Assembly (NCBI GenBank): GCA_024653575.1
Contig: JANLIJ010000161.1
Coordinates: 1-38,398, forward strand
Origin: Candidatus Kaiserbacteria bacterium
Lineage (GTDB): Bacteria > Patescibacteriota > Minisyncoccia > Phycocordibacterales > UBA918
Length of the DNA: 38,398 nt
Direction: 5' to 3'
Below, piece after piece: positions 15,877 to 38,398 of this stretch (position 1 is the stretch's first letter; each line of letters begins with the position of its first letter). A program made the translations under genes and the position numbers. The notes under the pieces are model-generated. The model made no database searches. It saw nothing but the letters and a program-made list of their open reading frames with translations, and was not told where the DNA came from.

Positions 15877-17199
15877 ATGTCAAAACCACTCATTATATGT
15901 AGGAACCTTGACATCACCTATAATAAGGGGAAGTCGAATGAATTTAAGGCGCTTCAGGGTGTAAACACTGACATTTACGAGGGCGAGTATATTATTCTCT
16001 TTGGACCATCGGGTTGTGGAAAGTCAACACTCATGTACGCCATACAGGGTTCACTTCCACCGGGTGATGGGACATTACTTATACGAGGCGATGATATTTA
16101 CTCATATCCCCCACAGGAGCGCGTCTACTTCCAGAGATATGTCATGGGAATTATTTTTCAGTCATTCAATCTCATTGGCTCCCTCTCGGTGCTCGATAAT
16201 GTTGCGCTTCCCATGATTTTTTGTGATGCAAATAAAGCGACACGCGAACGAAGGGCACAAATGTTGCTCGACAGGTTTGGTGTTGGTCACGTATCCGATA
16301 AGATTCCCTCAATGCTCTCAGGAGGACAGCAACAGCGTGTCTCTGTAGCGCGTTCCATGGTGAACGATCCGCAGATTCTACTCGCTGATGAACCAACAGG
16401 GAACCTCGATAGCACATCGACACAGCAGGTTATGGATAAGATTGACGAAATTAACACCTTTGATCAACGCACCATTATCATGGTCTCACACAATGCAGCT
16501 CACCTCTCATACGCTCATCGTGTGTACTACCTCAAGGATGGATTCATTGTGCGTGAGGTGGTGAATCCTCAGAGAAAGCAAATTAAACCCGTTCGTGAAG
16601 GTGAGACTATTGTAACTGAACTCGAACTGCTTGCGCGTCTTTTTCCCTACGACTCTATAGACACCCTTCGTGTAAAAAGTCTTACCAATTTTTTAACGCA
16701 AGATTATTCATTCAACCAACTTATTCGTATCGAGAAAGCTATCAGCCTTCTTATAAATGGAAAGATTCACAAAAAACTATTTATCGATGCACTGGTGAAA
16801 AAGTATGACGAAGGTGGGGTAGGAATAGAGAGGAAAACAGCAGAGCATATGGCGAGTGCTTCGGTCTCTATCGTGAAGCAGTCAGCAGATATTAAGCGTT
16901 TCAGAAGTGACAATGATTCCGATGCGGCATTCTTTTCGCAACATAAATTCGCTGAACGCGTGCGCGAGTATCTTCTAGAAAATCATCACATTCCACTCAC
17001 AAAAGTAATGGAGGCAAACCTTACTACGATGATTGCTGACAGGCTCTCCGGCGTCACGGGAGATAAAGATTTCCATAGAGAACTCATGGCGCTCACCAAG
17101 GATGGTGGCCTTCACCTCAAAGAAGATCTCGCTGATGATATGGCGCGGTACATGGAGAAACTCATCGCCCTCGGTGTTGATGTGAGCTACAAGGCGTAA
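15877..17199 (+). CDS. ABC transporter ATP-binding protein (MacB/LolD-type) with a C-terminal extension of about 190 aa
   Basis: Walker [10 protein letters not shown], signature [15 protein letters not shown], Walker [14 protein letters not shown]-loop VSHN; extra helical region from about 16612. Confidence 0.93.
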
Positions 17200-20448: not shown

Positions 20449-21657
20449 ATGCAAGTTGCTGATCTTGCTCGTCTTTCGACGAGAGCCTTTAAAACAAATC
20501 CACTCCGTACATGGCTGACGATTCTTGGTATGGGTGTGGGTACTGGTGCTGTCGTGGTGCTCGTGGGACTCGGCTTTGGTTTGCAACAAATCATTTTGGA
20601 ACAGATTGTCTTCGGGGACAGTCTCCTTTCTCTTGGTGTATCCGCAACAGGAGCGAAGAACCTCTCTATCACCGACGATGTTATTCAGAAATTTGAAGAG
20701 AATGAATATATTGAGGACGCAGCACCTCTTGCGCGCTATCCAGCACTTATTACCTATAAGGGTCTTACGGGTAACGTGTTCATTCAGGGTGCAGAGCCAG
20801 CGTATCTTCGCTATGCAGGTATAACCGCATCAAACGGTACTGCCTTTGTTGAAGAGGATATTGCAAACGGCAATGAAATAATGCTTTCCCCAGCGGTATT
20901 AAAGCTCTTTGGTGTTGAAGATCCAAAAGCATTTATTGGTCAAGAAGTCACTTTTAGACTCCTCGTTCCCGATACGGAAAACAGTGAACTTATTACAGAG
21001 ATTAATATTGAGAAGAAATATCGAGTGAAGGGAATCACAAAGGAGGAAGGAGTGCTCAATGTACTCATGATGTTGCCTGAACTCAAGAACTATGTCGGGA
21101 TTGAGGAGTACGACAGGGCACAGGTTAAGGTCGTTTCAAACCAATTTCTTGCATTGGCAGAAGAGGAACTCATTAAGGAAGGGTACCGAGTGACAGCACT
21201 TTCAAAGACTGTCGAGCAGGCATCGAAGATTTTTCAGGGAATTCAGGTGGTACTCGCAACATTTGGAGGTATCGCGCTCCTCGTATCCGCAATTGGTATG
21301 TTCAATACTATGACGGTGACGCTCCTCGAGCGGACCAAGGAAATTGGTATCATGAGAACAATTGGTGCTTCTCCAAGTGATATCAAGTCACTCTTCGTTT
21401 CTGAGTCAATTGTTGTTGGTTTTCTCGGGGGAGTGAGTGGGATAGTTATGGGGGTAACTTTGGGATTTGCTGTGAATATCATGTTGAACATTGCAGCGAG
21501 TCAGTTCGGTGGTACCTCGGTAAACCTCTTTTCGTTCCCTGTGTGGTTCCTTCTCTTTATTGCAATATTCTCAGCAGTTGTGGGGTATTTGACCGGAATC
21601 TTCCCAGCCAGAAGAGCCTCATTACTCAATCCACTCGACGCTATTCGCTATGAGTAG
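20449..21657 (+). CDS. MacB/FtsX-family ABC transporter permease
   Basis: N-terminal FKTNPLRTWLTILGMGVGTGAVVVLVGLG TM, extracytoplasmic core, C-terminal IGMFNTMTVTLLERTKEIGIMRTIGAS...YLTGIFPARRASLLNPLDAIRYE. Confidence 0.93.
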   Translation: MQVADLARLSTRAFKTNPLRTWLTILGMGVGTGAVVVLVGLGFGLQQIILEQIVFGDSLLSLGVSATGAKNLSITDDVIQKFEENEYIEDAAPLARYPALITYKGLTGNVFIQGAEPAYLRYAGITASNGTAFVEEDIANGNEIMLSPAVLKLFGVEDPKAFIGQEVTFRLLVPDTENSELITEINIEKKYRVKGITKEEGVLNVLMMLPELKNYVGIEEYDRAQVKVVSNQFLALAEEELIKEGYRVTALSKTVEQASKIFQGIQVVLATFGGIALLVSAIGMFNTMTVTLLERTKEIGIMRTIGASPSDIKSLFVSESIVVGFLGGVSGIVMGVTLGFAVNIMLNIAASQFGGTSVNLFSFPVWFLLFIAIFSAVVGYLTGIFPARRASLLNPLDAIRYE

Positions 21658-23656: not shown

Positions 23657-23678
23657 CAGATATGACTTCGCATATCTG
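23657..23678. promoter_or_regulatory. 8-bp hairpin in the leader of the next gene
   Basis: CAGATATG-ACTTCG-CATATCTG; contains the ATG at 23662. Confidence 0.55.
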
Positions 23679-24615
23679 CATTTACATAATGAAGTTTTTT
23701 CGCTCATTCCTGATTATAATTGCAGTACTTTTTTTTAATGTGCATGCACTGTATGCTGGCTTTGGTGTGACTCCGCCTTATGTATCGAATGTAAGTCTTA
23801 CACGGAATTCAGTATATGAACAAACGATTTATCTTGTGCGCAGTGACCCTACAACAGACCTGAAAGCAACAGTAAGTATTGATGTCCCTGGCGTCAATGA
23901 GTGGTTTGTAATCAATGAAGGAAATGAGTTTGTTTTGCCAAGAGGTGAGCAGAAGGTACCGATGACCGTAAAGGTCACTGTTCCTGACGATGCTGATTTT
24001 AAGCAGTATTCAGGGAACATCAGAATTAAGACAGGCGCAACTGATGACAAAGTACAGGGAGGCGCGGTGAGCATTTCACTCGGTGCACAGATTGATGTTG
24101 ATATCACTGTTATTGATAAAAAGATTAAAGATTTTAAAGTTAGAAAAATTGGTGTCTCAGATCTCAATGAGGGGCATAAGGTTGGGTGGCTCTATTATCC
24201 AGGAAAGATTACTTTTGAGATGTTCATTGAGAACATTGGGAATGTACCAATTGCACCATCTGACGTAGTCTTTAGAATATATGATAAATCAGGAAATGTA
24301 TTACTTGAAGAGGCTCATAAAAAGGGAAAGATTGAACAAGTAGAACCATTTGCCACAAAGTCAGTAATAGCAGAGTTGCCAACCAAGCTTCCTTCAGGAA
24401 GTTACCTTGCGAGGTTTGAAATTAAAAATGGTGATGATACAAAACTGAGTGGTGAGGTCAACCTTAGTGTGCTCCCGTACGGTACACTCCAGACGGCAGG
24501 CTTTGGCTTCCTCGGTCTATCTCTCGCACACAAACTCTCAGTAATAGTTCCAATTTTGTTCTTTATTACAATCCCACTCGCTATCCTCGTTCGTGCAAAA
24601 AGAAGGAGGAGATAG
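23662..24615 (+). CDS. Type I membrane protein with Ig-like domains, WxLIP (DUF916/DUF3324)-like; start at 23662 or 23689
   Basis: Signal MKFFRSFLIIIAVLFFNVHALYAGFGVTPPYVSNVSLTRNSVYEQTIYLVRSDP...; C-terminal TM plus RAKRRRR tail. Confidence 0.82.
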   Translation: MTSHICIYIMKFFRSFLIIIAVLFFNVHALYAGFGVTPPYVSNVSLTRNSVYEQTIYLVRSDPTTDLKATVSIDVPGVNEWFVINEGNEFVLPRGEQKVPMTVKVTVPDDADFKQYSGNIRIKTGATDDKVQGGAVSISLGAQIDVDITVIDKKIKDFKVRKIGVSDLNEGHKVGWLYYPGKITFEMFIENIGNVPIAPSDVVFRIYDKSGNVLLEEAHKKGKIEQVEPFATKSVIAELPTKLPSGSYLARFEIKNGDDTKLSGEVNLSVLPYGTLQTAGFGFLGLSLAHKLSVIVPILFFITIPLAILVRAKRRRR

Positions 24616-24616
24616 T

Positions 24617-25741
24617 ATGAAAATAAATAATTTCTCGCTACACCTTTGCCTGCTCTTATTGTTTGTGTTGTTTTGTTCTGGTTCGAAAAGTGCACATGCA
24701 CAGATTTCAGTCTCGACAACAACAGTCTTTGTGAGTATTTGTGGTGATTCCCTCATAAACTCTGGAGAAGAGTGCGATGTGCCTGGTGAGGTCGGTTCGT
24801 ACAGCACAACAATTGCAGGAAGACAGTGCGGTACTGAATGTCTCTATGGTCCATACTGTGGTGATGGCATCCTTCAGACAATTCATGCTGAGGTTTGTGA
24901 TGATGCAAATAATATAGATGCTGATTTTTGCGCCGCTGACTGTAGTCGTGAGACTGCGAATAGCGGTGGAGGGTCATCTGGTGGTGGAGGAAGTTCAGGT
25001 AGTGGTGGTCGAGATGCTGTGCTCGGTGACACACAGGTATCAATTCAAGGAAAAGCGTTTTTAAATACAACAGTTACGATACTCATCGACGGGACTTCAG
25101 TTGGAACGGTGCGTACTAACAGTAGAGGAGAATTTCAATTCAACGTTGAGACAGACCCGGGAACAGCATCCTTCGGATTCTGGGCGACAGATTCATCAGG
25201 TACACGTTCACTCACCGTAAATACCACTTTTGACGTGACACAGGGTGCTGTAACGAGTCTTAATGGAATTCTCATTCCACCAACGATACGTGTTTCTAAA
25301 GCAGTTGTGAACCCCGGTGAGGTTGTCACGGTGAGTGGACAGACAATGCCTGACTCTACAGTAGAAGTGGTCGTCGATAGTGGTACAAAGACATTTACGA
25401 CGACATCTGATTCTACCGGTAAGTGGTCACTTGAACTCAATACTGGCTCGTTGTCGGTGAGTGCGCACACACTCAAGGCCAGATTTGTCTCTGGTTCTGG
25501 ATCATTAAAGACCCAGAGCCCCTACGGTACGTCACTTGCACTTTCAGTTGGTGTGGAGGGGAAGGCGACAAATAATTCAGATTTGAATAGAGATGGAAAG
25601 GTTAATCTTATCGACTTCTCGATTCTCATTTTCTGGTGGGGAACACCAGGTGGTAACTCAAACCCGCCAGCGGATATAAATCAAAATGGTAAGGTAGGAC
25701 TTGAAGATTTCTCTATCCTCCTCTTCAATTGGACAGGCTAA
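24617..25741 (+). CDS. Secreted Cys-rich (DUF4215-like), Ig-like protein with a C-terminal type I dockerin-like domain
   Basis: SD AAGGAGGA upstream of ATG 24617. CGDSLINSGEECDVPGE...CGDGILQTIHAEVCDDANN; dockerin pair DLNRDGKVNLIDFSILIFWW and DINQNGKVGLEDFSILLFNW. Confidence 0.9.
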   Translation: MKINNFSLHLCLLLLFVLFCSGSKSAHAQISVSTTTVFVSICGDSLINSGEECDVPGEVGSYSTTIAGRQCGTECLYGPYCGDGILQTIHAEVCDDANNIDADFCAADCSRETANSGGGSSGGGGSSGSGGRDAVLGDTQVSIQGKAFLNTTVTILIDGTSVGTVRTNSRGEFQFNVETDPGTASFGFWATDSSGTRSLTVNTTFDVTQGAVTSLNGILIPPTIRVSKAVVNPGEVVTVSGQTMPDSTVEVVVDSGTKTFTTTSDSTGKWSLELNTGSLSVSAHTLKARFVSGSGSLKTQSPYGTSLALSVGVEGKATNNSDLNRDGKVNLIDFSILIFWWGTPGGNSNPPADINQNGKVGLEDFSILLFNWTG

Positions 25742-25744
25742 TCG

Positions 25745-25898
25745 AGTATAAGTATTTAGTATAAGTATGGAGTATACGAAAACACAACCACTAAATGCTA
25801 CGAACCAAACGCTAATCACCAATCACTAAGTGCTAACTCTTATGTATAATTGCAGTCGTTGCCTTTAAATACTGATACTCATACTAAATACTAATACT
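25745..25898. repeat. Imperfect inverted repeat of about 30-nt AGTAT-iterated arms
   Basis: Left arm AGTATAAGTATTTAGTATAAGTATGGAGTAT (25745-25775); the reverse complement of 25869-25898 is AGTATTAGTATTTAGTATGAGTATCAGTAT. Confidence 0.75.
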
Positions 25899-25948
25899 AA
25901 CTTTGTGTATAACTTGCTCATAAAAATTTCAGGGTGCGCTAGAATGTA

Positions 25949-26190
25949 AGTACGCCTATTGGGGGTACACAATCCATTCATGTGAGGAGTGTGTGTCGCC
26001 GGTTGGACACGTTCATGCCGCAAGTGCTTACAGCCGAGCACTGTCTGGTGGGCGTAGTACATTGATAGTAAACATTAGGGAGGTGGAGACTCTCATGTTT
26101 ACGGAGTGCACAAATATATACTGGAAAGAGCACCAGTTAAGCACTACTCATTATTCAGAGTCAATGTATTGATTAATACAACGTAAAGCC
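25949..26190 (+). ncRNA. Candidate structured leader RNA / cis-regulatory RNA
   Basis: Six plausible helices: TACGCC 25951-25956/GGCGTA 26051-26056; GTGTC 25993-25997/GACAC 26006-26010; GTGCT 26024-26028/AGCAC 26037-26041; GTAAACAT 26068-26075/ATGTTTAC 26095-26102; AGTGC 26105-26109/GCACT 26141-26145 with inner ACTGG 26120-26124/CCAGT 26133-26137; TGTATT 26165-26170/AATACA 26175-26180. Confidence 0.55.
26095..26172 (+). CDS. Possible 25-codon leader ORF (MFTECTNIYWKEHQLSTTHYSESMY)
   Basis: Strong SD GGGAGGTGG just upstream; TGA 19 nt before the next CDS, which has no obvious SD of its own. Confidence 0.4.
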   Translation: MFTECTNIYWKEHQLSTTHYSESMY

Positions 26191-26191
26191 T

Positions 26192-27331
26192 ATGATTCAC
26201 ACGGAAAAGACCGTGCGAACTCTTCAGGCTGTTGCGATGTCGGTTGGTTTGGCACTATTCCTTTGGAGTACAGGCCTCCCAGCATTACTCCTCCAAGCGG
26301 AGGCGGCATCAATCACGAACGCAAGTGATACGCTGAGTAATTCAGCACCATCAGTGACCTCAAACCACACGATTGCCTTTACTACGCTAAATGGTATGAC
26401 AATCGGACAAAACTTTACCGTGACCTTCGCATCACAGTTTGACACCTCAGCGGTGACAATCAACGATGTAGACCTCAGTGTAGCTGCTGCCGATCAAACG
26501 ATCGTAGATGGTGCATCAGTGGCTGGTCAATGGGGAGTTGCGGGTTTGGGGACTGACGCGATTACATTTACCACACCTACAGATGCAGGAGTCGGATCTT
26601 CAACAGCAATTGTTGTGAAGATTGGATCAAATGCAACTGGTGGTACGATTCGAATCGTGAATCCAAGTGCTACAACGTCCTATGCAATTGATGTTGCGGG
26701 GACAATGCAGGACTCAGGACAGATGCGTGTTGCAATTGTTGATCAGGTTACCGTGTCAGCGAGTGTCGATACGTCACTCACATTTTCAGTTACCGGAGTT
26801 AATCCTCTACAAACTGTAAATGGAAGCCCTACTACAACAATCGCTACATCAACACCGACAACACTTCCATTTGGAACACTTCCAGTGGGAACATCACGTA
26901 CACTTGCACATGATCTCACTGTCGCCACTAACGCCTCACAAGGCTATACGGTGACGATACAGCAGACCGGTGATTTGCAATCAACAACTGGTGCAACTAT
27001 CGATGGATTCATTGATGGTGCAGATACTGCAACGCCAACAGCGTGGCAGGGACCAGCAACATTAATTGCAAACCCTGATACGTATGGACACTGGGGTATT
27101 ACCTCAGAGGACTATGCGTCAACATCTCGTGCCGTTGAATTTTCAAGTGACACGTGGGTATCAGGAAGTACGACACCTATCGCAGTTATGGGCCACGATG
27201 GCCCAGCTGACGGCCTTACAGCTGGTTCAGGTGCTACACGAGTCGGTTATCAAGTTCAAATATCAGCATTGCAAGAAGCGGGTGACGACTATACAACGAC
27301 ACTTCGCTACGTAGCAACGCCGACGTTCTAA
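26192..27331 (+). CDS. Exported beta-rich surface protein (possibly a major surface protein) with WxL-like C-terminal region
   Basis: Signal peptide ending LLLQAEAAS; LPFGTLPVGTSRTLAHDLTVATNASQGYTVTIQQ...YGHWGIT...YQVQISALQEAGDDYTTTLRYVATPTF C-terminus. Confidence 0.83.
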   Translation: MIHTEKTVRTLQAVAMSVGLALFLWSTGLPALLLQAEAASITNASDTLSNSAPSVTSNHTIAFTTLNGMTIGQNFTVTFASQFDTSAVTINDVDLSVAAADQTIVDGASVAGQWGVAGLGTDAITFTTPTDAGVGSSTAIVVKIGSNATGGTIRIVNPSATTSYAIDVAGTMQDSGQMRVAIVDQVTVSASVDTSLTFSVTGVNPLQTVNGSPTTTIATSTPTTLPFGTLPVGTSRTLAHDLTVATNASQGYTVTIQQTGDLQSTTGATIDGFIDGADTATPTAWQGPATLIANPDTYGHWGITSEDYASTSRAVEFSSDTWVSGSTTPIAVMGHDGPADGLTAGSGATRVGYQVQISALQEAGDDYTTTLRYVATPTF

Positions 27332-27349
27332 GCAACAGACTAAGAGTGT

Positions 27350-27385
27350 GAAAAACCCTATCTCCCACCACGAGACGGGTTTTTC
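27350..27385 (+). terminator. Candidate intrinsic terminator
   Basis: GAAAAACCC (27350-27358) / GGGTTTTTC (27377-27385), 18 nt after the 27331 stop. Confidence 0.6.
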
Positions 27386-27425
27386 ATTTTCTCGATGGCT
27401 CTGCCATCGAGAAAATGAAAAATCC
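27377..27425. repeat. Long hairpin with 23-nt arms and a 3-nt loop
   Basis: GGGTTTTTCATTTTCTCGATGGC-TCT-GCCATCGAGAAAATGAAAAATCC; a single G-T wobble. Confidence 0.9.
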
Positions 27426-27452
27426 GGCTCGTCCCACGATGACGGGTGCCCA

Positions 27453-27481
27453 AAAAATAAGGAGCGAAGCGACATATTTTT
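27453..27481. repeat. Hairpin with GAGCGAAGCGAC loop (copy 1)
   Basis: AAAAATA-[AGGAGCGAAGCGACA]-TATTTTT. Confidence 0.65.
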
Positions 27482-27495
27482 CGAGGCCGTGGCCT

Positions 27496-27527
27496 AGAAG
27501 TTAACGAGCGAAGCGACTATAACTTCT
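27496..27527. repeat. Hairpin with GAGCGAAGCGAC loop (copy 2)
   Basis: AGAAGTTA-[ACGAGCGAAGCGACTA]-TAACTTCT; same 12-nt loop core, different stem. Confidence 0.7.
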
Positions 27528-27532
27528 GGTCT

Positions 27533-27565
27533 GTCTCCTTTTTCTTTCACAATGAAAAAGGAGAC
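27533..27565. repeat. 12-bp perfect hairpin
   Basis: GTCTCCTTTTTC-TTTCACAAT-GAAAAAGGAGAC. Confidence 0.85.
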
Positions 27566-27570
27566 CATAA

Positions 27571-27638
27571 CAAAATTTTATTCCTAATAAATTTTGTGAC
27601 GCATCACTCCAACGCAATTTATAGTTCAGCATGGTGCG
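27571..27638. repeat. 68-nt direct repeat, copy 1
   Basis: CAAAATTTTATTCCTAATAAATTTTGTGACGCATCACTCCAACGCAATTTATAGTTCAGCATGGTGCG; 66/68 identical to 27681-27748. Confidence 0.95.
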
Positions 27639-27680
27639 CTGATGCGCCCCATACAGCGACTATATTTTCTGAGCCCGTCG

Positions 27681-27748
27681 CAAAATTTTATTCCTAATAA
27701 ATTTTGTGACGCATCACTCCAACGCAATTCATAGTCCAGCATGGTGCG
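27681..27748. repeat. 68-nt direct repeat, copy 2
   Basis: Same element with two T-to-C differences (27730, 27736); both copies begin with an internal inverted repeat CAAAATTT...AAATTTTG. Confidence 0.95.
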
Positions 27749-27863
27749 ACGACACAAAATATGAGTGACCCAATTCCTAGTTTCCTAGCTCGTCCCACGA
27801 TTTTTTATACACCCTCCATGCATGTGAGTGCACGCAAACTCTTGCTATACTATGTTTATATAT

Positions 27864-28880
27864 ATGAGGTGGACATTTTTCATTCAGGGTTTTTGGTTTG
27901 CATTGTTATTCTTAGTACAACCTCTTGCTGTGCATGGAGCACTTCTCTATTTTGACCCCGCAAGTACTGATGTGTATAGAGGTGATAGCGTTACACTTTC
28001 ACTCAGGCTCGATACTGATGAAGGGGAGTGTATCAACACTATTGACGCCACTGTCCACTATGACGAGTCCGTTCGTGCGGTTGATATTTCGAGGGGAGAC
28101 TCTATTTTGAATATATGGGTTGAGGATCCCGTTATCGATGAATCAGCGCATACTATTAAATTTGCTGGGGGTATTCCTGGCGGATACTGTGGTCGCATTC
28201 CTGGAGACCCAAGTCTCACCAATGTTATCTTGAAACTCGTATTCCGCTCACCCGGCTTTAGTATAGGAGGTGGAGACAGCCAGTCAGCACGTGTTTGGGT
28301 GGATGAGAACGTGCAAGTGCTTCTTCATGATGGGTATGGAACAAATGCTGACACAAAACTGCAGGACGCGCTCATTAATTTAATGAGTACCCCAGGGACA
28401 AACGTTTCTGATACATGGAGGAGTGATGTTGGAGGAGACGCTGATTTGCCGTCAGATTTTAGTATCACTTTAACAAAAGATGACACAGCTTTTAGTGGAC
28501 GATATTTTGTTGTATTCAATTCCAGTGACAAACAGTCAGGTATTGATCACTATGAAATAATGGAAGAGCCATTTTCAGAATTCTTTGCCTTCGCATGGGG
28601 AAGGGCAGACGCACCATGGGTACGGGTAGAGAGTCCTTATGTACTCGAGGACCAAACGCTCAACAGTACTATTCGTATAAAGGCTATCGATAAAGCAGGA
28701 AATGAGCGCATCGCAACTCTTGTCCCCGATACTGCCTTACGAAGCATGTCGCAGGATGCACTGATCACAACCATTGTTGCCGTTGGTGTAATTGGATTGC
28801 TTAGTACACTCATTGTGTATGGGTTGTGGAAACGGCGGCAGCGTGTTCTTGAAAACTCTAATAAAATTGATAATGAGTAA
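27864..28880 (+). CDS. Type I membrane protein with N-terminal cohesin-like domain
   Basis: Probable ATG 27864 (track starts at GTG 27828); MRWTFFIQGFWFALLFLVQPLAVHG signal; LYFDPASTDVYRGDSVTLSLRLDTDEGECINTIDATVHYDESVRAVDISRGDSILNIWVEDP; C-terminal TM plus KRRQR. Confidence 0.82.
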   Translation: MRWTFFIQGFWFALLFLVQPLAVHGALLYFDPASTDVYRGDSVTLSLRLDTDEGECINTIDATVHYDESVRAVDISRGDSILNIWVEDPVIDESAHTIKFAGGIPGGYCGRIPGDPSLTNVILKLVFRSPGFSIGGGDSQSARVWVDENVQVLLHDGYGTNADTKLQDALINLMSTPGTNVSDTWRSDVGGDADLPSDFSITLTKDDTAFSGRYFVVFNSSDKQSGIDHYEIMEEPFSEFFAFAWGRADAPWVRVESPYVLEDQTLNSTIRIKAIDKAGNERIATLVPDTALRSMSQDALITTIVAVGVIGLLSTLIVYGLWKRRQRVLENSNKIDNE

Positions 28881-30615
28881 TCACACTACATGGCGTGTCC
28901 TCTTGCTTTCAATCACCTGTCTGTGCTTGTTTCCTTTTTCAAATACTGCTGAAGCTGCGGTACTTAAACTAAACCCGAATACAGGTGTTTATTCGGCGGG
29001 AAAATCTTTTACGGTGTCCATTGTTCTGAACACTGAAGGAAAACCCGTGAACGCTGCAGATGGTCAACTTTCATTCAGTCCGCAAGAACTACAGGTTGTA
29101 TCGATATCTCGAGCGAGTTCCATCTTTAATCTATGGACTGAGGAGCCATCTTTTTCTAACGCGCGGGGAACAATCACATTCAGTGGCGGTTCTCCTTCAG
29201 GATACAAAGGTGCCAGTGGTTCAATTGCTGTAATCACATTTAGATCACTCGGCGCGGGAACACCAAAGGTGACTTTTTCAAATGGCTCTGCGCTCGCAGC
29301 TGACGGAATGGGGACAAATGTACTCACTGCAATGAACGGTGGCACATATACGATTGCTGCAGAGAGTGTCAGTCCTGCTCCTGAATACATTCCTCCTGCA
29401 AATACACCAAAAGCTCCAGTTGTTACCTCGAGCACGCATCCAGACGAATCTGTTTGGTACAAAGAGAAGAGTGCCAATCTCGCGTGGACACTCCCTGATG
29501 ACGTTACTGCAGTTCGTGTAATTCTTGATGACAATGCGGGCACTGTCCCGACAAAAGTCTATGACGAACCAATTACTGAAAAGACGATTGAGGATTTGCC
29601 TGAAGGAACTTCATACTTTCATATTCAATTCAAAAACGGTGAGGGGTGGGGCAAAATTACTCACTTCAAACTTTCAGTCGATACAGAGACCCCAAAGAAT
29701 TTTGTCGTGAGCGAAGAAGATGGGGAAAACTTGAGCAACCCAAAACGGGTTCTCGTGTTTACCGCTGAGGACACCTCACCGCTCCTTAACTATAGAATCC
29801 AAATTGATGGCAAAGACCCACTTGATTTTAAGGATCTAGAGCAGACAAGTAAATATGCACTTGACCAACTTTTGCCCGGATACCACACGATTACTGTTGA
29901 GGCTTTTGATAGTGCAGGCAATTCAACAGTCGCAAATTATTCCTTGACAGTTTCAACGTTTGAAAAACCTATTTTTATTGATTATCCAACGAGAGTCAAT
30001 ACTGAGGTAATTCCAGCAATTAAGGGTAAGACACGCCCGCAGTCATCAGTAGCGATTACTGTCAGTGAAGCAAGTGGTGCTCGTATTGCAAATGCAGATG
30101 AGGGCACGCGTACCTATACAGTCACGAGCAACGATAGTGGTGAGTTCATCTTTATTCCAGATGGGCCGTTCATAGAAGGTGTCTATGTCATACGAGCTAT
30201 TGCAACAGATTCGTTTGGCAGTATGAGTGAAGAGTCAGACGAGATACGCCTCATTGTTGAAGTCCCGGGGTACATTGCAATTGGTTCGGTAGTAGTGAGC
30301 ATCCTCTCAGTGCTGGTGCCTGCGGTCAGTCTTATACTCGTATTGCTTTTTGGGACGTGGTATCTTTGGCACAAACTCATTGTGTGGAAGCGACGTGTGC
30401 GAAAGGAAACCCTTGAGGCTGAGGAGCGTTTGACTCTTGAGTTCGATGGTTTGGTGAAGAATCTCCATGAACATGTGACAGAACTCAAAGAATCACGCAA
30501 AAATAAATTAACAAAAGCAGAATCAGAATTAATTGCAAAGATTGAGGATGATCTTTCACTTGCACGGAAGAAGATTGGAAAGGAAATTGAGGATATAGAA
30601 GGTGTAATCAAATAA
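28873..30615 (+). CDS. Cohesin-like, FN3/Ig-like membrane protein with cytoplasmic coiled coil
   Basis: ATG 28873 overlaps the preceding stop by 8 nt; LKLNPNTGVYSAGKSFTVSIVLNTEGKPVNAADGQLSFSPQELQVVSISRASSIFNLWTEEP; TM then K/E-rich helix. Confidence 0.85.
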   Translation: MSNHTTWRVLLLSITCLCLFPFSNTAEAAVLKLNPNTGVYSAGKSFTVSIVLNTEGKPVNAADGQLSFSPQELQVVSISRASSIFNLWTEEPSFSNARGTITFSGGSPSGYKGASGSIAVITFRSLGAGTPKVTFSNGSALAADGMGTNVLTAMNGGTYTIAAESVSPAPEYIPPANTPKAPVVTSSTHPDESVWYKEKSANLAWTLPDDVTAVRVILDDNAGTVPTKVYDEPITEKTIEDLPEGTSYFHIQFKNGEGWGKITHFKLSVDTETPKNFVVSEEDGENLSNPKRVLVFTAEDTSPLLNYRIQIDGKDPLDFKDLEQTSKYALDQLLPGYHTITVEAFDSAGNSTVANYSLTVSTFEKPIFIDYPTRVNTEVIPAIKGKTRPQSSVAITVSEASGARIANADEGTRTYTVTSNDSGEFIFIPDGPFIEGVYVIRAIATDSFGSMSEESDEIRLIVEVPGYIAIGSVVVSILSVLVPAVSLILVLLFGTWYLWHKLIVWKRRVRKETLEAEERLTLEFDGLVKNLHEHVTELKESRKNKLTKAESELIAKIEDDLSLARKKIGKEIEDIEGVIK

Positions 30616-30616
30616 A

Positions 30617-31279
30617 ATGAAAGATAGAATTCAAAACCATGCAGTCATCGCGTCAGCCCTCTTGTTTTTTGTTGTTACAATTCTCGTAGGTGTGTGGCTT
30701 GTTCACTTTAATCAGCGTGAATTAGAAACATCATTGCGGGCTTCGCTCGAGTTGAAGGAAATGCGCCTGCAGGAACTTGCTGATATTACAGACAGGAACG
30801 GCGCAGATGAAATTGTTACTAAGATTATTGCTGACTGCTCACGGAGACCAGAATTTGAATCATTACTTGTCCGTCTCTCAGAACTCAACGGAAAGGAGTT
30901 GTTGACACTGCAAAATCTTGAAGACGCATGTGGTGGTTTTTATGCAGAACGAAAGGCGCTCATGGTATCAAAGCTCGAGCAAGAGTTTCAGAATTACTCT
31001 GAAACAGTGAAATTCCTCCTTCTCCTCACCTCACATGACTCAACCTCGTACCGTATAGCTGATTGGAATGCTCTCGTCACACTTGAGCAGGAACGGAGCG
31101 ACCTTCTCACTGAACAGAGGGTGTTACAGGAGGAAATCATTACGGCGCTCATGCAGGGGTCATTAGTTCAGAGTGCTCGAGTACAAGATCTTGTCCATGA
31201 GGCACAGGAGATTGCTGAACTTCTTACTGTTCACGATAGGCAAATAGACGAAAAGAGAGATGCCTTGAAGGTGCCCTAG
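30617..31279 (+). CDS. Single-pass membrane protein with coiled-coil region
   Basis: N-terminal TM AVIASALLFFVVTILVGVWLVHF followed by long E/L/R-rich helices; starts 1 nt after the preceding stop. Confidence 0.78.
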   Translation: MKDRIQNHAVIASALLFFVVTILVGVWLVHFNQRELETSLRASLELKEMRLQELADITDRNGADEIVTKIIADCSRRPEFESLLVRLSELNGKELLTLQNLEDACGGFYAERKALMVSKLEQEFQNYSETVKFLLLLTSHDSTSYRIADWNALVTLEQERSDLLTEQRVLQEEIITALMQGSLVQSARVQDLVHEAQEIAELLTVHDRQIDEKRDALKVP

Positions 31280-31289
31280 TTAGTTGTCT

Positions 31290-32030
31290 ATGATACAAAA
31301 ATTTTTGCTCTTATTTTCAATACGACCAAGAGACAGAAAATTTGATACTGTTCGATATGCTTTTCCAATTGTGGTCATCGCTACAATCTTTGCTGGCCTC
31401 GCATCCATCGCAACGGAGAACAGCTCATACGTCACCATCAGTTCTCCATTGACTACCATTTCCCGCGACCAAGAATTTTTCATTGATGTTTCAATTTCTG
31501 CACACGTTCCAATCAATGCAATTGACCTGGTAATATCATATTCTGAAAAGACACTTGATGTGCTTGCGATTGATACCGGAACATCGGTCATAACACTTTG
31601 GACAGAGAACCCATACGCGGAGAACGGAAAAATATATTTGCGTGGTGGTACCTTCAGGAAGGGCTTCCTTGGTGAGCATGAGGTTGCGCGAATTAAAGTG
31701 CGCGCCAAAGAGGCCGGTGAAGCACGGTTCTTTGTGAGCGGAACTGAATTTATTGCGGGGGATGGCCTCGGAACTCCGGTAACTGCAGTAGAATCAGAAC
31801 ATAATGAACTCAAAATTGCGGTGCTTGGTGATGATCGTGGAGTTATATCGGGTGAGGCAACCATTTCTCTTGTGACCGATACCGATGGCGATGGAGACGT
31901 TGATTTGGGCGACATTAGTGACTTTATGACTGCGTGGCTTACACGAACGAATATGTATGATTTTAATCATGACGGAAAAATGACTTTTAGAGATTTTTCG
32001 ATACTTCTTGCAGATTCTTTCCTTCGATAG
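31290..32030 (+). CDS. Membrane-anchored cohesin-like plus type I dockerin-like protein
   Basis: ATG 31290 (track starts at TTG 31284). YVTISSPLTTISRDQEFFIDVSISAHVPINAIDLVISYSEKTLDVLAIDTGTSVITLWTENP, then DTDGDGDVDLGDISDFMTAWL and DFNHDGKMTFRDFSILLADSF. Confidence 0.88.
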   Translation: MIQKFLLLFSIRPRDRKFDTVRYAFPIVVIATIFAGLASIATENSSYVTISSPLTTISRDQEFFIDVSISAHVPINAIDLVISYSEKTLDVLAIDTGTSVITLWTENPYAENGKIYLRGGTFRKGFLGEHEVARIKVRAKEAGEARFFVSGTEFIAGDGLGTPVTAVESEHNELKIAVLGDDRGVISGEATISLVTDTDGDGDVDLGDISDFMTAWLTRTNMYDFNHDGKMTFRDFSILLADSFLR

Positions 32031-32228: not shown

Positions 32229-34043
32229 ATGAATAGAAAACGGTACGTAATGAATACGGCACACAAAGACCTACGCGGTTTTGCATATCTGATATACAGT
32301 GCTATTTCACTGTCACTCCTCATGGTGATGGTGTTTTTACCGCTTGCGCCACTTTTTGCTGATGAGATTGTGATGGACGAACCTACGGTCACTTCTGTTG
32401 AAGAAAGTGTTGTGCCTGACTTCGTTGATCTGGTACCAGAAACAGAAGAGCAGGTAGTCGAAAGCGAGCAACAAGACTTAATTGAGGACGTTGCTATAGG
32501 AAGTGTTATTGATGAACATAATAAATCAGAATTAACTCAAGGTGATTCAGATACAGTACTTTATGATGCTACACAAAGTGGCGAAGACCCAGTACCTGTT
32601 GAAGAAATTACAAGTTCAGATACAAGCGGAAATGCGGTAACTGAGGAAGGTGATATTGCTGATGTAGAAGTAATTGAGGAAAACACAGAGGCAGTGTCTG
32701 ATGAGGCTATCGATACGGAGGTGGCTGAGGAAGCTTCAAATACATCAGACGAGGTCGAAGATATTGAAATCATTGATGAGACAGTGGAAGAATTGCTTGA
32801 GGAAACTGATGGAGAACAGGTCGGGGACATTGATGAGGAGCAAGTCAATGAAACCGAAGAGACTATTTCAGACACTGAAGAGGAAAATGATATTTCTGAT
32901 GAAGAGTCGAAAGTCCACGCAGTCGCAACTTCTTCTGACACAGAAAATGTAATTATGGTAAATACACTTACCAATGACAGCAATAAATTCTCGTTTGCAG
33001 AAAATGAATGCACTACTGCAGGCGATGGAACATTTTATTGTGTAAAAGCTGAACATGCACCTGAGATTATTCATACTGACCGTATTTTTTCAGCCATTGA
33101 CATTGAGGGGGATAAGGAGATTTATGTTGAAAAAGATAGTGAAATTAGCCCTCTCACGAGCAATCAGTATGATGATGATGCACCGTACTATGATGAAGTC
33201 TCAAATACTGCTGTGTGGCATCGTCTCATTGATGGCCGGTACCAAATCATCTCTTTTGATTTTGATAAAGAAGAAGAGACCCAACTAACGAACGATCGAT
33301 TTAACAATATGGAGCCAAACCGCTTTGGTAGCGCAACTGTGTGGCAGGGATGGGTGGGAAATGATTGGGAGATATTCTTTTTTGAAGGTGGCGAACTTAC
33401 TATGCTTACCGACAATACCATTAATGACATCACACCAAGCGTAAATGGAGCATATGTCGTGTGGCAATCATTTGAGAACAGTGCCTGGGTTATGAAGGTG
33501 TATGACATTCGTTCAAGAACAACTGCAACTATTGATGATAAATCAGGAGGCTCTATCGAGAATCCACGTTTTGTACTTGTGTATGATTCAAAACAGATGA
33601 CTGGTGATGTTGAAACAAAGGGATATGACCTCAAGAGTGGTAAGGTGATTGCCCTTGGTTCATCCCCAGTGAATCTACCTGAAGAAATTCCAGATCCAGA
33701 TCAGACTGGTGAGGAGCGTGCGCTTGTGACAATCATCACCCAACTGAAACCAAAGACAGAGGACGATGGTGGTGGAGATGAACCGTTACCAGATGCTGTT
33801 GGTACAAGTACCCCAAGCGACACAGATTTATTCATTACACCAAACGCCATTGAGTTTGGTACCACAACACTCGAGACTGTAGAAGGGCCCACTGCGACAT
33901 CGTCAACTGACGTTATTGTTCCAGCCATTATTACAGTAGATAGTGTCGACACCTCACACATTGAGGATATCATTGTTACAACATATGTAGAGCCAATTGC
34001 AAGTACTACTCTTGCACAGGAAATGATTGTTTCTGAGGAGTAA
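32229..34043 (+). CDS. Exported protein with long acidic region followed by a TolB-like beta-propeller
   Basis: N-terminal TM; about 190 aa of very E/D-rich sequence; DDDAPYYDEVSNTAVWHRLIDGRYQIISFDFDKEEETQLTNDRFNNMEPNRFGSATVWQGWVGNDWEIFFFEGGELTMLTDNTINDITPSVNGAYVVWQ. Confidence 0.82.
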   Translation: MNRKRYVMNTAHKDLRGFAYLIYSAISLSLLMVMVFLPLAPLFADEIVMDEPTVTSVEESVVPDFVDLVPETEEQVVESEQQDLIEDVAIGSVIDEHNKSELTQGDSDTVLYDATQSGEDPVPVEEITSSDTSGNAVTEEGDIADVEVIEENTEAVSDEAIDTEVAEEASNTSDEVEDIEIIDETVEELLEETDGEQVGDIDEEQVNETEETISDTEEENDISDEESKVHAVATSSDTENVIMVNTLTNDSNKFSFAENECTTAGDGTFYCVKAEHAPEIIHTDRIFSAIDIEGDKEIYVEKDSEISPLTSNQYDDDAPYYDEVSNTAVWHRLIDGRYQIISFDFDKEEETQLTNDRFNNMEPNRFGSATVWQGWVGNDWEIFFFEGGELTMLTDNTINDITPSVNGAYVVWQSFENSAWVMKVYDIRSRTTATIDDKSGGSIENPRFVLVYDSKQMTGDVETKGYDLKSGKVIALGSSPVNLPEEIPDPDQTGEERALVTIITQLKPKTEDDGGGDEPLPDAVGTSTPSDTDLFITPNAIEFGTTTLETVEGPTATSSTDVIVPAIITVDSVDTSHIEDIIVTTYVEPIASTTLAQEMIVSEE

Positions 34044-34064: not shown

Positions 34065-37000
34065 ATGCAAGGAGGTATTATAAAAAAACTCCAGGGTTTT
34101 AGAGTTGCTCTTTCCCTGTATCTTCTCATGGCGATTGTCATCGGCAGTTTTGGTGATGGTTTCATTTTGGGACATATTCAAAAGGTAGAGGCCGCACAGG
34201 TCTCGGTGGATACAGCCGTCAACATATCGTCAACATCGCATCTTCAAAGCGGGTCGCAAACAGTTTTTACCGACGACCAAACTGGGTATAAATTTTATCG
34301 AGACGGCACTGGCATATGTGTATACAGTAAGACGACTGACGGTGGAGTAAATTGGAATACTGCAGTGACTGTCGATGCTCAGACAGATTGCGTCAACATC
34401 ACCGTATGGTACGACAAGTGGACACCAGGGGACACAGGAAGCATTATCCATATCGTCACAAAGGACACATCACTTGATGATCTCTTTTACAATAATCTTG
34501 ACACCGCATCGAGTGATACTCTTCTTAAGGGTGCAAGTCCTATTGATGCGGTAACAAACAGCAGTAATAGCATCGCGACATTTGTTCTTGGTTCAAACCT
34601 TCCAACAATAACTAAGGGGACTGATGGCACCGTCTATCTTGCTATGAGTGATGCAAGTGATTCATACGTCGTTGAGTGTTCATCAAACTGTGGTGTTGCA
34701 ACGAGCTGGACAGAGACAGGGACTAACCCGATGGATCTTGCAAATGATTACAATCTGCTCGTTCCACTCGCAAGTGGTGACATCATGCTCATTAATCGCG
34801 ACATCTCACTTGAAGACATTCGCACAAAAATTTGGAATAATACAACATGGTCTGCGTCATGGACGGCAGTTGATGCAAATGCAACTGATAATTTGACGTA
34901 TGATGGTGGGCTTGCGGCGACGGTGAGCTCCACAACACCTGGTGTCGTTTACCTTGCCTATACCGCTAATAATGCAACACTTGGTACTGACGATGCAGTG
35001 AGAACTGCCTACTACAGTGGAAGCGCATGGGCAACTAAAACAGCGGTCATAGTTAATGGAGGAACTACAAGGGCCATTACTGGTGTCACCATCGCACTCG
35101 ATACTGTAACAGAGGATGTATATGTGGGTTACTCAGCACGCACGACAGCGGGCACCGCAGGGACTGGAAATGTGTACTGGAAAAAATCGACTGACGGAAT
35201 GACAACGTGGGACGTTGAGCAAGGACCCGTAAATACTGCCGGGGCAGATGATATATATGGAGTTGATTTTAATAATGCAAACTCAGAGCGAATATATGGC
35301 ACATGGTACGAAGCTACGGAAGATTATGTCTATGGAGACACAATAGCAGATCTATTCACTGGTATTGGCGTCTCCTCGACGGGAAGTCAGACAGTGACCG
35401 CGTATGCAAGCTCAACAAATGTGTATCTTGGTGGCGTGTTTTCCTTTCTCGATTCGGTTGATACGCGTGATGTCACGAGCATCACTCTGACTGAGAGCGG
35501 AACTGTTGATGCAAGTGCCGAGCTTACGAACATCAAGCTCTATTACGAAATGGATTCTACAGTTCCATACGACTGCGCTAGTATTTCATTTGATGGTACA
35601 GAGAGTCGATTTGGGGCAACTGACACGAATGGGTTTTCAGGAGCAGACGGGGTCTCAGCCTTTACCGGTTCAAGTGTCGCTGTGAGTACAACATCTGCGA
35701 TGTGTGTGTACGTAACAACTGACATTGTGGACTCAGTGGCGAGCGGTGAGACCATAGAAATCTCAATCGCGAACCCATCGAGTGATGTGGGAGTTACGTC
35801 AGGCGAGGTGGTGCCTGCGACTTCTGTTACTATTTCAGGCACAACAAATGTGCTGAATGACATGCCGACACAGATGCACTACCACTGGCGTAATGACAAT
35901 GGAAGTGAGACGACCGCAACGTCGAAGACTGGAGGCGTGGAAGATACTTCGTATACAGCGTTTCAGCCAGGAACAAACGCACGTCTTCGCATTGAAGTTT
36001 CAAATGAAGGTGGGAGCTCAACACCAAACATGCAATATCGGCTTGAGTACGCCGAGCTTACTGACACATGCCAAAACGCTACTGGATGGACGGACGTGGG
36101 CTCGACAGGCGGTATATTTGATATGCTCAATACTGTAAATCTTGCAGATGGAGCAAATACGACAAACATTGCTGTTGCAACGGGAGGTGTTACAAACGAA
36201 AATACTACTTTTCTTACACCAAACGGTGGTGTGAGAGATACGTCATCACAAACAGGAAACATTCTACTTTCAACGACACAGTATGTTGAATTCGAATATT
36301 CTATTCGGGCAACATCGACTGCGCCGGAGGGAAGTACGTACTGCTTCCGCGTGACCGATGCAGGTAATCCCATCTACGCATACAGCCAGTACCCACGCAC
36401 GAATATTGCTGCAGATGTGGCAGTGACCGCAACAGGGACACAAATGGCATCAGCAAATATCCCCGCCACAAACTTTTATGTGGGAGGTTCATATGTCATC
36501 ACGGAGAATAGTAGTTCACGAAATGTCACAGACATAACGATAACCGCAAGTGGCACAGCCGATGCGCAAGCAGACCTCGACAATATCAAGCTGTACTACG
36601 ACCTTGATACAAGCTCACCCTACAATTGCGCAAGTGAGTCTTATGGTGGTGGAGAATTACAATTTGGCTCAACCGATACGGATGGATTCTCATTAGCAAA
36701 TGGCACGTCTACGTTCAGTGGGAGTGTCACTATAAGTACCACTGCGACCATGTGTGTGTATATAGTGCTCGATACAACTGCGACTGCGCAAAATGGTAAA
36801 ACTGTTGATATTCTCCTTACTGACCCTTCAGTAAATGTTATCGTTTCGGGTGGAGGCTCGGTGGGGCCATCGATTGATCGTAATATCACTGGTGCTACAT
36901 CACTCGTCGGAGCAGTTCTTACACAAATGCATTATCATTGGCGCAATGACAACGGAAGCGAGGTAGTGGCAACTTCAATGACCGGAGGTGTTGAGGATAT

Positions 37001-38398
37001 GCCCATCACTAACATTGCACAGACAACGCCAGTGCGTCTTCGTGTGCAGGTATCCAATGAAGGTGCCATTACATCAGCTTCACGTGCATTAACGCTTGAG
37101 TACGGTACAAAGATTACCAATTGTAGTGCGATTGGCTCGTGGACGAATGTCGCTGATACTGGTGGAGCGTTTGATTTATATAACTCCGTGAACCTTACCG
37201 ACGGGAATAATACAACCGATATCGCTGTTGGAGCAGGCGGTGTTACGAATGAAAATACGACCTTTCTTACACCAAACAGTGCGGTGAAGGATACCTCAGG
37301 CAGTGTCGCTTCAACGACGATTACATCGTCTCAATTTATTGAGACGGAGTATTCACTTCAGCAAACAATTGACGCAGGGTATGATACATCATATTGCTTC
37401 CGTGTTTCCACAACCGAGGTCCCACTTAATGAGTACGTGAGTTATGCGGAACTCACCACATCACCAGAACGTGACTTTGAGATACAGCGTGGTACGGTGA
37501 CTGTTACCGGAACGTCGGCGACCATTACTGCGGGCGTTGATTACGTTGCGCCATCATCGGCGTCAAATGCATTTATTCGTATTACCAATTCTCATTACAC
37601 CGGCGCTGGAAGTACGCTTACAGGAACTCAAAATACAGATGACGTGACAGCGTATATCCTAAATCCTGGAAACATTCTATCATCAATAACTTTTCAGCGA
37701 CCAGCCACTGCAATAAACAATACACGTGTATCTTGGGAAATAGTTGAGTTCATTGGTTCACCAGGGGCTGATAATGAAATGATTGTCAGGAGCCAATCAG
37801 TGGTGACCTATGGATCAACGAGTCTCACCGCAACAGGCACTGCGGTCTCTGGAGTTGCTGATGATGCAGACGTGGTAGTTTTTATTACAGGTCAAATGAG
37901 TCCTGATACTGCTCGTTCAAATTATAACGCGCTTCAATCTACCACAGCGTGGAATGATGCAACTGATGAGCCAATCTTTACTCGCGGTGACACAGGAAGC
38001 GATGCTGTCCTCGTCAGTTATGCAGTTGTTGAATTTACTGGCCCGAATTGGATAGTACAACGAAGTGAACATACATACACCAATGCCGGAACGACTGAAA
38101 CAGAAGCAATTACAGCAATTGGAAGTCTTTCTCGTGCTTTCATTCATGCGCAACGGCGTGTCGGAAGTGCGCTCATTGGTACGGATGAATTTGGGCATGA
38201 GGTATGGCTTTCAAGTATCGGGTACGTTTCTTACTTCATTGAGGCAGGCGCAACGACACCCTCTGGGCAGACGAGTGTCGCATGGATTATTGAGAACACT
38301 CAGACAACCTCAGGTGCTATGGACGTTACCTACTCAAACGGAAGCTCGAACAGAGGTACAGAACCGCTCACGGTGAGTGTTGCTATTGGAAAGGTGCT
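34065..38398 (+). CDS. Second giant surface protein, 3'-truncated by the window (BNR-like propeller, 351-aa repeats, HWRNDNGSE modules)
   Basis: Frame open from ATG 34065 to window end (MQGGIIKKLQGFRVALSLYLLMAIVIGSFGDGFILGHIQKVEAAQVSVDTAVNISSTSHLQSGSQTV...); omitted from the track because it has no stop in the window. Confidence 0.9.
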   Translation, partial: MQGGIIKKLQGFRVALSLYLLMAIVIGSFGDGFILGHIQKVEAAQVSVDTAVNISSTSHLQSGSQTVFTDDQTGYKFYRDGTGICVYSKTTDGGVNWNTAVTVDAQTDCVNITVWYDKWTPGDTGSIIHIVTKDTSLDDLFYNNLDTASSDTLLKGASPIDAVTNSSNSIATFVLGSNLPTITKGTDGTVYLAMSDASDSYVVECSSNCGVATSWTETGTNPMDLANDYNLLVPLASGDIMLINRDISLEDIRTKIWNNTTWSASWTAVDANATDNLTYDGGLAATVSSTTPGVVYLAYTANNATLGTDDAVRTAYYSGSAWATKTAVIVNGGTTRAITGVTIALDTVTEDVYVGYSARTTAGTAGTGNVYWKKSTDGMTTWDVEQGPVNTAGADDIYGVDFNNANSERIYGTWYEATEDYVYGDTIADLFTGIGVSSTGSQTVTAYASSTNVYLGGVFSFLDSVDTRDVTSITLTESGTVDASAELTNIKLYYEMDSTVPYDCASISFDGTESRFGATDTNGFSGADGVSAFTGSSVAVSTTSAMCVYVTTDIVDSVASGETIEISIANPSSDVGVTSGEVVPATSVTISGTTNVLNDMPTQMHYHWRNDNGSETTATSKTGGVEDTSYTAFQPGTNARLRIEVSNEGGSSTPNMQYRLEYAELTDTCQNATGWTDVGSTGGIFDMLNTVNLADGANTTNIAVATGGVTNENTTFLTPNGGVRDTSSQTGNILLSTTQYVEFEYSIRATSTAPEGSTYCFRVTDAGNPIYAYSQYPRTNIAADVAVTATGTQMASANIPATNFYVGGSYVITENSSSRNVTDITITASGTADAQADLDNIKLYYDLDTSSPYNCASESYGGGELQFGSTDTDGFSLANGTSTFSGSVTISTTATMCVYIVLDTTATAQNGKTVDILLTDPSVNVIVSGGGSVGPSIDRNITGATSLVGAVLTQMHYHWRNDNGSEVVATSMTGGVEDMPITNIAQTTPVRLRVQVSNEGAITSASRALTLEYGTKITNCSAIGSWTNVADTGGAFDLYNSVNLTDGNNTTDIAVGAGGVTNENTTFLTPNSAVKDTSGSVASTTITSSQFIETEYSLQQTIDAGYDTSYCFRVSTTEVPLNEYVSYAELTTSPERDFEIQRGTVTVTGTSATITAGVDYVAPSSASNAFIRITNSHYTGAGSTLTGTQNTDDVTAYILNPGNILSSITFQRPATAINNTRVSWEIVEFIGSPGADNEMIVRSQSVVTYGSTSLTATGTAVSGVADDADVVVFITGQMSPDTARSNYNALQSTTAWNDATDEPIFTRGDTGSDAVLVSYAVVEFTGPNWIVQRSEHTYTNAGTTETEAITAIGSLSRAFIHAQRRVGSALIGTDEFGHEVWLSSIGYVSYFIEAGATTPSGQTSVAWIIENTQTTSGAMDVTYSNGSSNRGTEPLTVSVAIGKV
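35360..37460 (+). repeat. Two protein-level repeats of about 351 aa in the second giant protein
   Basis: MHYHWRNDNGSE at 35874 and 36927 (1053-nt period); GGVTNENTTFLTPN and NIKLYY(E/D)(M/L)D also recur. Confidence 0.88.

Follow-up and report, generated by a model that had tools for sequence, protein, structure and literature searches.

A putative non-cellulosomal cohesin-dockerin docking cassette for sortase-free surface display in Patescibacteria

Cohesins and dockerins are already known outside the cellulosome, and for those of archaea strong binding has been reported (PMC9012536, PMC9705933). Many dockerin and cohesin proteins occur in ANME archaea (PMC9012536), and both papers cite a non-cellulosomal pair from Archaeoglobus fulgidus (PDB 2xdh). 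Two further reports describe an essential dockerin protein, SEML1_0315, in Southlakia epibionticum, for which its authors propose glycan targeting (PMC10633639), and dockerin-domain proteins among the giant ORFs of Omnitrophota (PMC10066038).

The DNA analysed here (the window) is a stretch of 38,398 nucleotides from a Candidatus Kaiserbacteria bacterium (contig JANLIJ010000161.1); its locus (Table 1) is probably a non-cellulosomal cohesin-dockerin docking cassette for sortase-free surface display, a reading drawn from sequence comparison. Like the A. fulgidus pair, it combines cohesin and dockerin without cellulose degradation; unlike that archaeon, loci of the window type have up to several TM-anchored cohesins, a putative adaptor, a fixed gene order, and WxLIP-like and pilin-like neighbours. 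The ANME proteins are likewise non-cellulosomal and exported, in organisms living in tight partnerships, but their cargo includes ABC-transporter binding proteins and they carry up to five cohesins per protein, against usually one cohesin and Ig-like cargo here (PMC9012536). The cellulosome (type I; PDB 2vn5, 1g1k) has the same cohesin fold (TM-score ~0.8), a two-loop C-terminal dockerin, and anchored and adaptor scaffoldins; in contrast, the window locus is devoid of a multi-cohesin scaffoldin, CBM or glycoside hydrolase, each protein has one cohesin, and cohesins and dockerins are near 1:1 in this genome (4 and 3). In S. epibionticum and Omnitrophota, bacteria that are ultra-small and depend on a host, dockerins belong, as in the window, to envelope or adhesin-like proteins; the passages on them name no cohesin partner, whereas the window has a linked membrane cohesin (PMC10633639, PMC10066038). 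The WxL/WxLIP system of Gram-positives (PF06030, PF13731) may be comparable in that a putative WxLIP-like protein ending in a TM is encoded next to a secreted surface protein of beta domains, and differs in that this genome has no PF13731 WxL domain and adds cohesin and dockerin.

Table 1 Features of the cohesin-dockerin locus (positions in the window; TM, transmembrane segment)
Feature	Position	Strand	Description	Basis
WxLIP-like protein	23662..24615	+	317 aa; signal peptide; C-terminal TM; conserved neighbour upstream of dockerin gene	Iterated profile family membership
Secreted dockerin protein	24617..25741	+	Signal peptide; Cys-rich DUF4215/myxo_disulf repeat; two Big_6/Big_13 Ig-like domains; C-terminal dockerin (~25574-25738)	PF00404, PF17936, PF13948, TIGR02232
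Structured leader RNA, core	25950..26104	+	5' of pilin-like gene; whole conserved leader ~240 nt (25950-26191)	Comparative folding
Pam-pilin-like two-domain surface protein	26192..27331	+	379 aa; two predicted beta-sandwich domains (pLDDT 87.9)	Weak NF058581 CPR_Pam_pilin_C match, AlphaFold
Cohesin protein A	27864..28880	+	Signal peptide; cohesin ~27936-28391; C-terminal TM; start ATG 27864 or GTG 27828	Alignment with paralogue, gene order; PF00963 below cut-off
Cohesin protein B	28873..30615	+	Signal peptide; cohesin 28954-29364; Big_13 Ig-like domains; C-terminal TM pair; predicted cytosolic coiled coil	PF00963, AlphaFold, Foldseek, Big_13
p220	30617..31279	+	Helical protein, 220 aa; N-terminal TM	Homologues in 16 loci
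Protein C, putative adaptor	31290..32030	+	N-terminal hydrophobic segment; cohesin 31422-31820; C-terminal dockerin 31872-32027; no C-terminal TM	Alignment; PF00404 23.3 bits with frame neighbours
p604	32229..34043	+	Secreted; weak beta-propeller repeats	TIGR04275 31.5 bits, below cut-off; homologues in 14 loci
Cohesin signature copies	28107-28130, 29125-29148, 31590-31613		GG...G motif after each	

The initial annotation had proposed three cohesin-type signatures in this region, and a search of all six frames found [LI]W[TV]E[EDN]P exactly three times in the window, at the places proposed; the reading LW held for the second and third copies, the first having IW. All three beta domains are cohesins, and all three can be aligned with a paralogue on contig C110 of the same genome, which passes Pfam Cohesin unaided (29.2 bits) and shares 45% identity with cohesin B across the domain. 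Cohesins A and C are 35% and 28% identical to B, with invariant residues in common. Scored as domain alone against PF00963 (cut-off 24.1 bits), B reached 33.4 bits (5.9e-8), whereas A (18.9 bits) and C (14.6 bits) fell under the cut-off, so that the assignment of these two rests on alignment and conserved gene context. For B, the profile and fold searches, which could have pointed to another family, returned cohesin: 49 of its 58 relatives match Cohesin in Pfam, the AlphaFold model built with these 58 relatives as input has pLDDT 96.9, and cohesin structures took all 50 of the 50 best PDB matches listed by Foldseek, among them 1g1k (TM 0.81/0.78, rmsd 2.5) and, in tenth place, the A. fulgidus non-cellulosomal cohesin. 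When the PDB was searched with a profile of four cohesin sequences, only weak scaffoldin matches came up (0.012); 58 sequences did better, and identity was settled by fold comparison. The best related locus, in a Kaiserbacteria MAG, has 68% cohesin identity. Strands 3, 5, 6 and 8 form the dockerin-binding face of type I cohesins; they are more conserved in the present set (p 0.004), a value biased by the gathering of sequences with patterns from those same segments.

The two dockerin-like calcium-binding pairs noted earlier were upheld by PF00404 (cut-off 22.9 bits), as was the presence of both domain types on protein C: the dockerin of the secreted protein scored 39.5 bits, that of protein C 19.6 bits by itself and, once frame neighbours were included, 23.3 bits. 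Both window dockerins are genuine; in each, two 12-residue loops with Asp at positions 1 and 12 are complete (DLNRDGKVNLID / DINQNGKVGLED and DTDGDGDVDLGD / DFNHDGKMTFRD), and two loops are present in 113 of 122 homologues. A search for other dockerin tails brought the whole genome (1.03 Mb) to three dockerins and four cohesins, with C110 as the second cohesin-dockerin locus. Two of the dockerins sit on Ig-like proteins, one on cohesin protein C and none on an enzyme.

All genes of the window locus lie on one strand, and the consecutive operon first described needs small corrections: the gene of the membrane protein p220 separates those of cohesin proteins B and C, and the pilin-like gene, with its own long leader, separates the dockerin gene from the first cohesin gene; owing to this intervening gene and leader, the locus probably forms more than one transcript. 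Downstream of an invariant TANAAT (-10-like) box the leader has a predicted multi-branch fold, in which 22 of 29 predicted pairs show compensatory changes; CAGCC and GTGGAGAC loops are invariant, and ACAACGTA stands just before the ATG. It had no Rfam match and was found in close relatives only (2 of 287 genomes, the second match weak), and is a candidate for a new cis-regulatory RNA. A strong hairpin with 30-nt arms lies 3' of the pilin-like gene (27370-27432), and a 78-nt direct repeat (92%) occupies the non-coding gap before cohesin A (27561-27748). Upstream of the cassette, an ABC ATPase and a MacB/FtsX-like permease, named by eye, are encoded at 15877-17199 and 20449-21657 with two genes between them. 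Very large secreted ORFs (3-14159, with DUF2341 domains, and 34065-38398) run off both contig ends; with another at the C110 locus (L006, 14673-19001), such ORFs flank both cohesin loci of the genome. The large window proteins other than the dockerin proteins carry DUF2341, Gly_rich_2 and CARDB.

A set of 287 Patescibacteria genomes was searched with profiles built from this genome's four cohesins and its three dockerins; 101 have a cohesin, 79 a dockerin and 61 both. Dockerins thus occur in 61 of the 101 cohesin genomes against 18 of the 186 others (Fisher 1e-19). Strong dockerins lie within 3 kb of a cohesin in 38 of 51 cases, always on the same strand (38/38), with the cohesin directly downstream in 36 of the 38 and a median gap of 153 bp. 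Gene orders were dockerin-cohesin-cohesin (57), dockerin-cohesin (18) and dockerin-cohesin-cohesin-(cohesin+dockerin) (11), counts that are approximate, as a few loci duplicate one place and loci were picked for containing a cohesin. Eight loci were inspected from genomes in which the dockerin profile gave weak matches or none; in six of them a divergent dockerin gene immediately precedes the cohesin gene and itself follows a gene for a TM protein and often also a pilin-like one. The full order of the window (WxLIP-like, dockerin, pilin-like, cohesin A, cohesin B, p220, cohesin+dockerin, p604) recurs in about a dozen further genomes, either whole or as far as the contig reaches (for example loci L079, L081, L082, L085, L087, L088 and L093; others in part). 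Proteins of the C type are conserved in ~12 related loci and p604 is the conserved next gene; p220, for which no Pfam match above threshold was obtained, is conserved within the window-type locus only. Two MAG contigs labelled Lokiarchaeota (L099) and Ectothiorhodospiraceae (L123) bear a typical patescibacterial cassette and are probably mis-binned. Dockerin and cohesin genes thus form a cassette that is conserved throughout the phylum Patescibacteria, and co-occurrence and adjacency across the phylum support pairing and, with it, the non-cellulosomal cohesin-dockerin system that the initial annotation had put forward; a mirror-tree comparison gave a signal that is not dockerin-specific, the Ig region beside the dockerin correlating with the cohesin equally well.

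The two cohesin proteins said to be anchored, A and B, each have a C-terminal hydrophobic segment and protein C has none. By a simple hydropathy rule, the same division holds throughout the set: a C-terminal TM is predicted for 213 of the 234 cohesin proteins that lack a dockerin and for none of the 21 that have one, and 142 of 145 dockerins form the end of their protein. A display system would call for sockets that are anchored and for plugs and adaptors that are soluble, and TM segments are distributed as expected for it. Calcium-dependent, sortase-free retention of secreted Ig-like or pilin-like proteins at the membrane is the most likely function suggested by these sequences. All parts would be exported by their predicted signal peptides; A and B would be held in the cytoplasmic membrane by their C-terminal TM segments, with the coiled coil of B (conserved in 97 genes, in a search that also catches some similar coils) reaching the cytosol; and the dockerin of the upstream-encoded secreted Ig-like protein would fold with two Ca2+ ions and plug into the cohesin of A, B or both, keeping the protein at the cell surface. 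Taken jointly, export, membrane anchoring and dockerin plugging are judged highly probable. Protein C, with cohesin and dockerin and no C-terminal anchor, may then serve as a chain-extending adaptor, a role that we favour slightly.

The cohesins and dockerins could also be true members of their families by descent that now act separately, the cohesins as adhesive or spacer Ig-like domains, the dockerins as C-terminal caps stabilised by calcium or glycan-directed modules. Binding between them is inferred here from family knowledge and gene coupling, glycan targeting has been proposed for SEML1_0315 of S. epibionticum (PMC10633639), and some genomes have one partner only: no cohesin was detected in 18 of the 79 dockerin genomes, and lone cohesins occur at L169 and L170. 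These last are short proteins (L169 6093-6782, L170 5824-6561) with a C-terminal TM and a glycosyltransferase-like neighbour, no dockerin being nearby, and perhaps put the domain to a different use. Separate action is nonetheless quite improbable in view of the strong co-occurrence, fixed order and tight adjacency of the genes, the complementary distribution of TM anchors and dockerins, and the retention of both calcium loops. A further reading has the dockerin of protein C bind the cohesin of its own chain or of another copy, which would make the protein an adhesin that inhibits itself or polymerises with itself. Cohesin and dockerin on one chain without a C-terminal anchor would suit this, as would a dockerin strongly unlike the other (31% identity to the C110 dockerin), but the gene adjoins two anchored cohesins in the window-type locus, and we hold self-binding to be improbable.

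In a third reading, the cassette is the membrane anchor of a patescibacterial Pam pilus, with the dockerin protein as base or tip subunit and the cohesins as socket; it is a narrower form of the docking-cassette explanation and compatible with it. In the docking cassette itself, the cargo would be structural or adhesive rather than enzymatic. As the initial annotation had it, no carbohydrate-active enzyme is visible: Pfam gave no such domain and no CBM above cut-off in the proteins scanned, and no enzyme domain above cut-off among the dockerin proteins scanned. Seven large dockerin proteins had, besides the dockerin, MG2-like domains and one sub-threshold CBM-like match alone, and Ig-like domains are present on the dockerin proteins encoded by this genome. 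Judged from its dockerin-bearing proteins, the system has cohesin and dockerin without cellulosomal enzymes. At the C110 locus, tandem FGE-sulfatase-like (PF03781) proteins, membrane-anchored or secreted (L006 8884-9681 and 9711-10514), are encoded between the pilin-like and dockerin genes, and no glycoside hydrolase was seen there. Pilin-like and WxLIP-like genes adjoin many cassettes, and 14 dockerin proteins, including the paralogous one of this genome, have the pilin-like N-domain (E 1e-28 to 4e-9) and none of them the pilin-like C-domain. Because of this shared N-domain, a link of the cargo with the neighbouring pilin-like and WxLIP-like surface proteins is suggested, and a connection of the dockerin proteins with a pilin-like layer or fibre is plausible. 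The sharing of the domain is observed and fibre anchoring is speculative, so a structural or adhesive cargo tied to these neighbours is put forward tentatively. Matches to NF058581 are weak and under its 55-bit cut-off, both for the window gene (21.1 bits) and for the best of the genome (37.5 bits). In a fold search the window pilin-like protein met MSCRAMM-type adhesins at low TM-scores (~0.2), probably due to uncertain domain orientation, and the two beta-sandwich architecture alone was retained. A WxL identity of its C-domain, suspected from the C-terminal TY.ATPxF ending, was not supported by PF13731, which has no match in the genome. The WxLIP family includes a member matching PF06030 WxLIP_PGBD (L050:4396-5421, 3.8e-10); the window copy itself is under Pfam thresholds, and another copy of the genome reaches 28.1 bits with neighbours. 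Pilin and WxLIP genes also occur without a cohesin (contig C103), cohesin-dockerin pairs without pilin-like genes are common, and a literature search found no description of a Pam pilus; the pilus anchor is rather unlikely. Equally doubtful is a phylum-wide sortase-free assembly in which TM-anchored cohesins, one of which has a cytosolic coiled coil, act as sockets for pilin-like or Ig-like fibres through C-terminal dockerins, which, if true, would also explain the essential dockerin protein of S. epibionticum.

Non-cellulosomal systems are known; the phylum-wide variant is new, and our literature search found nothing on a cohesin in patescibacterial surface assembly. A non-covalent plug and socket of this conserved kind, with anchored sockets, C-terminal plugs and an adaptor, would explain in a general way how many patescibacterial lineages hold their adhesive surface proteins. 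It would give dockerin proteins like the essential one of the cultivated epibiont a partner, the membrane cohesin, and suggests this putative partner as an alternative to glycan targeting. It also offers new orthogonal cohesin-dockerin pairs for engineering.
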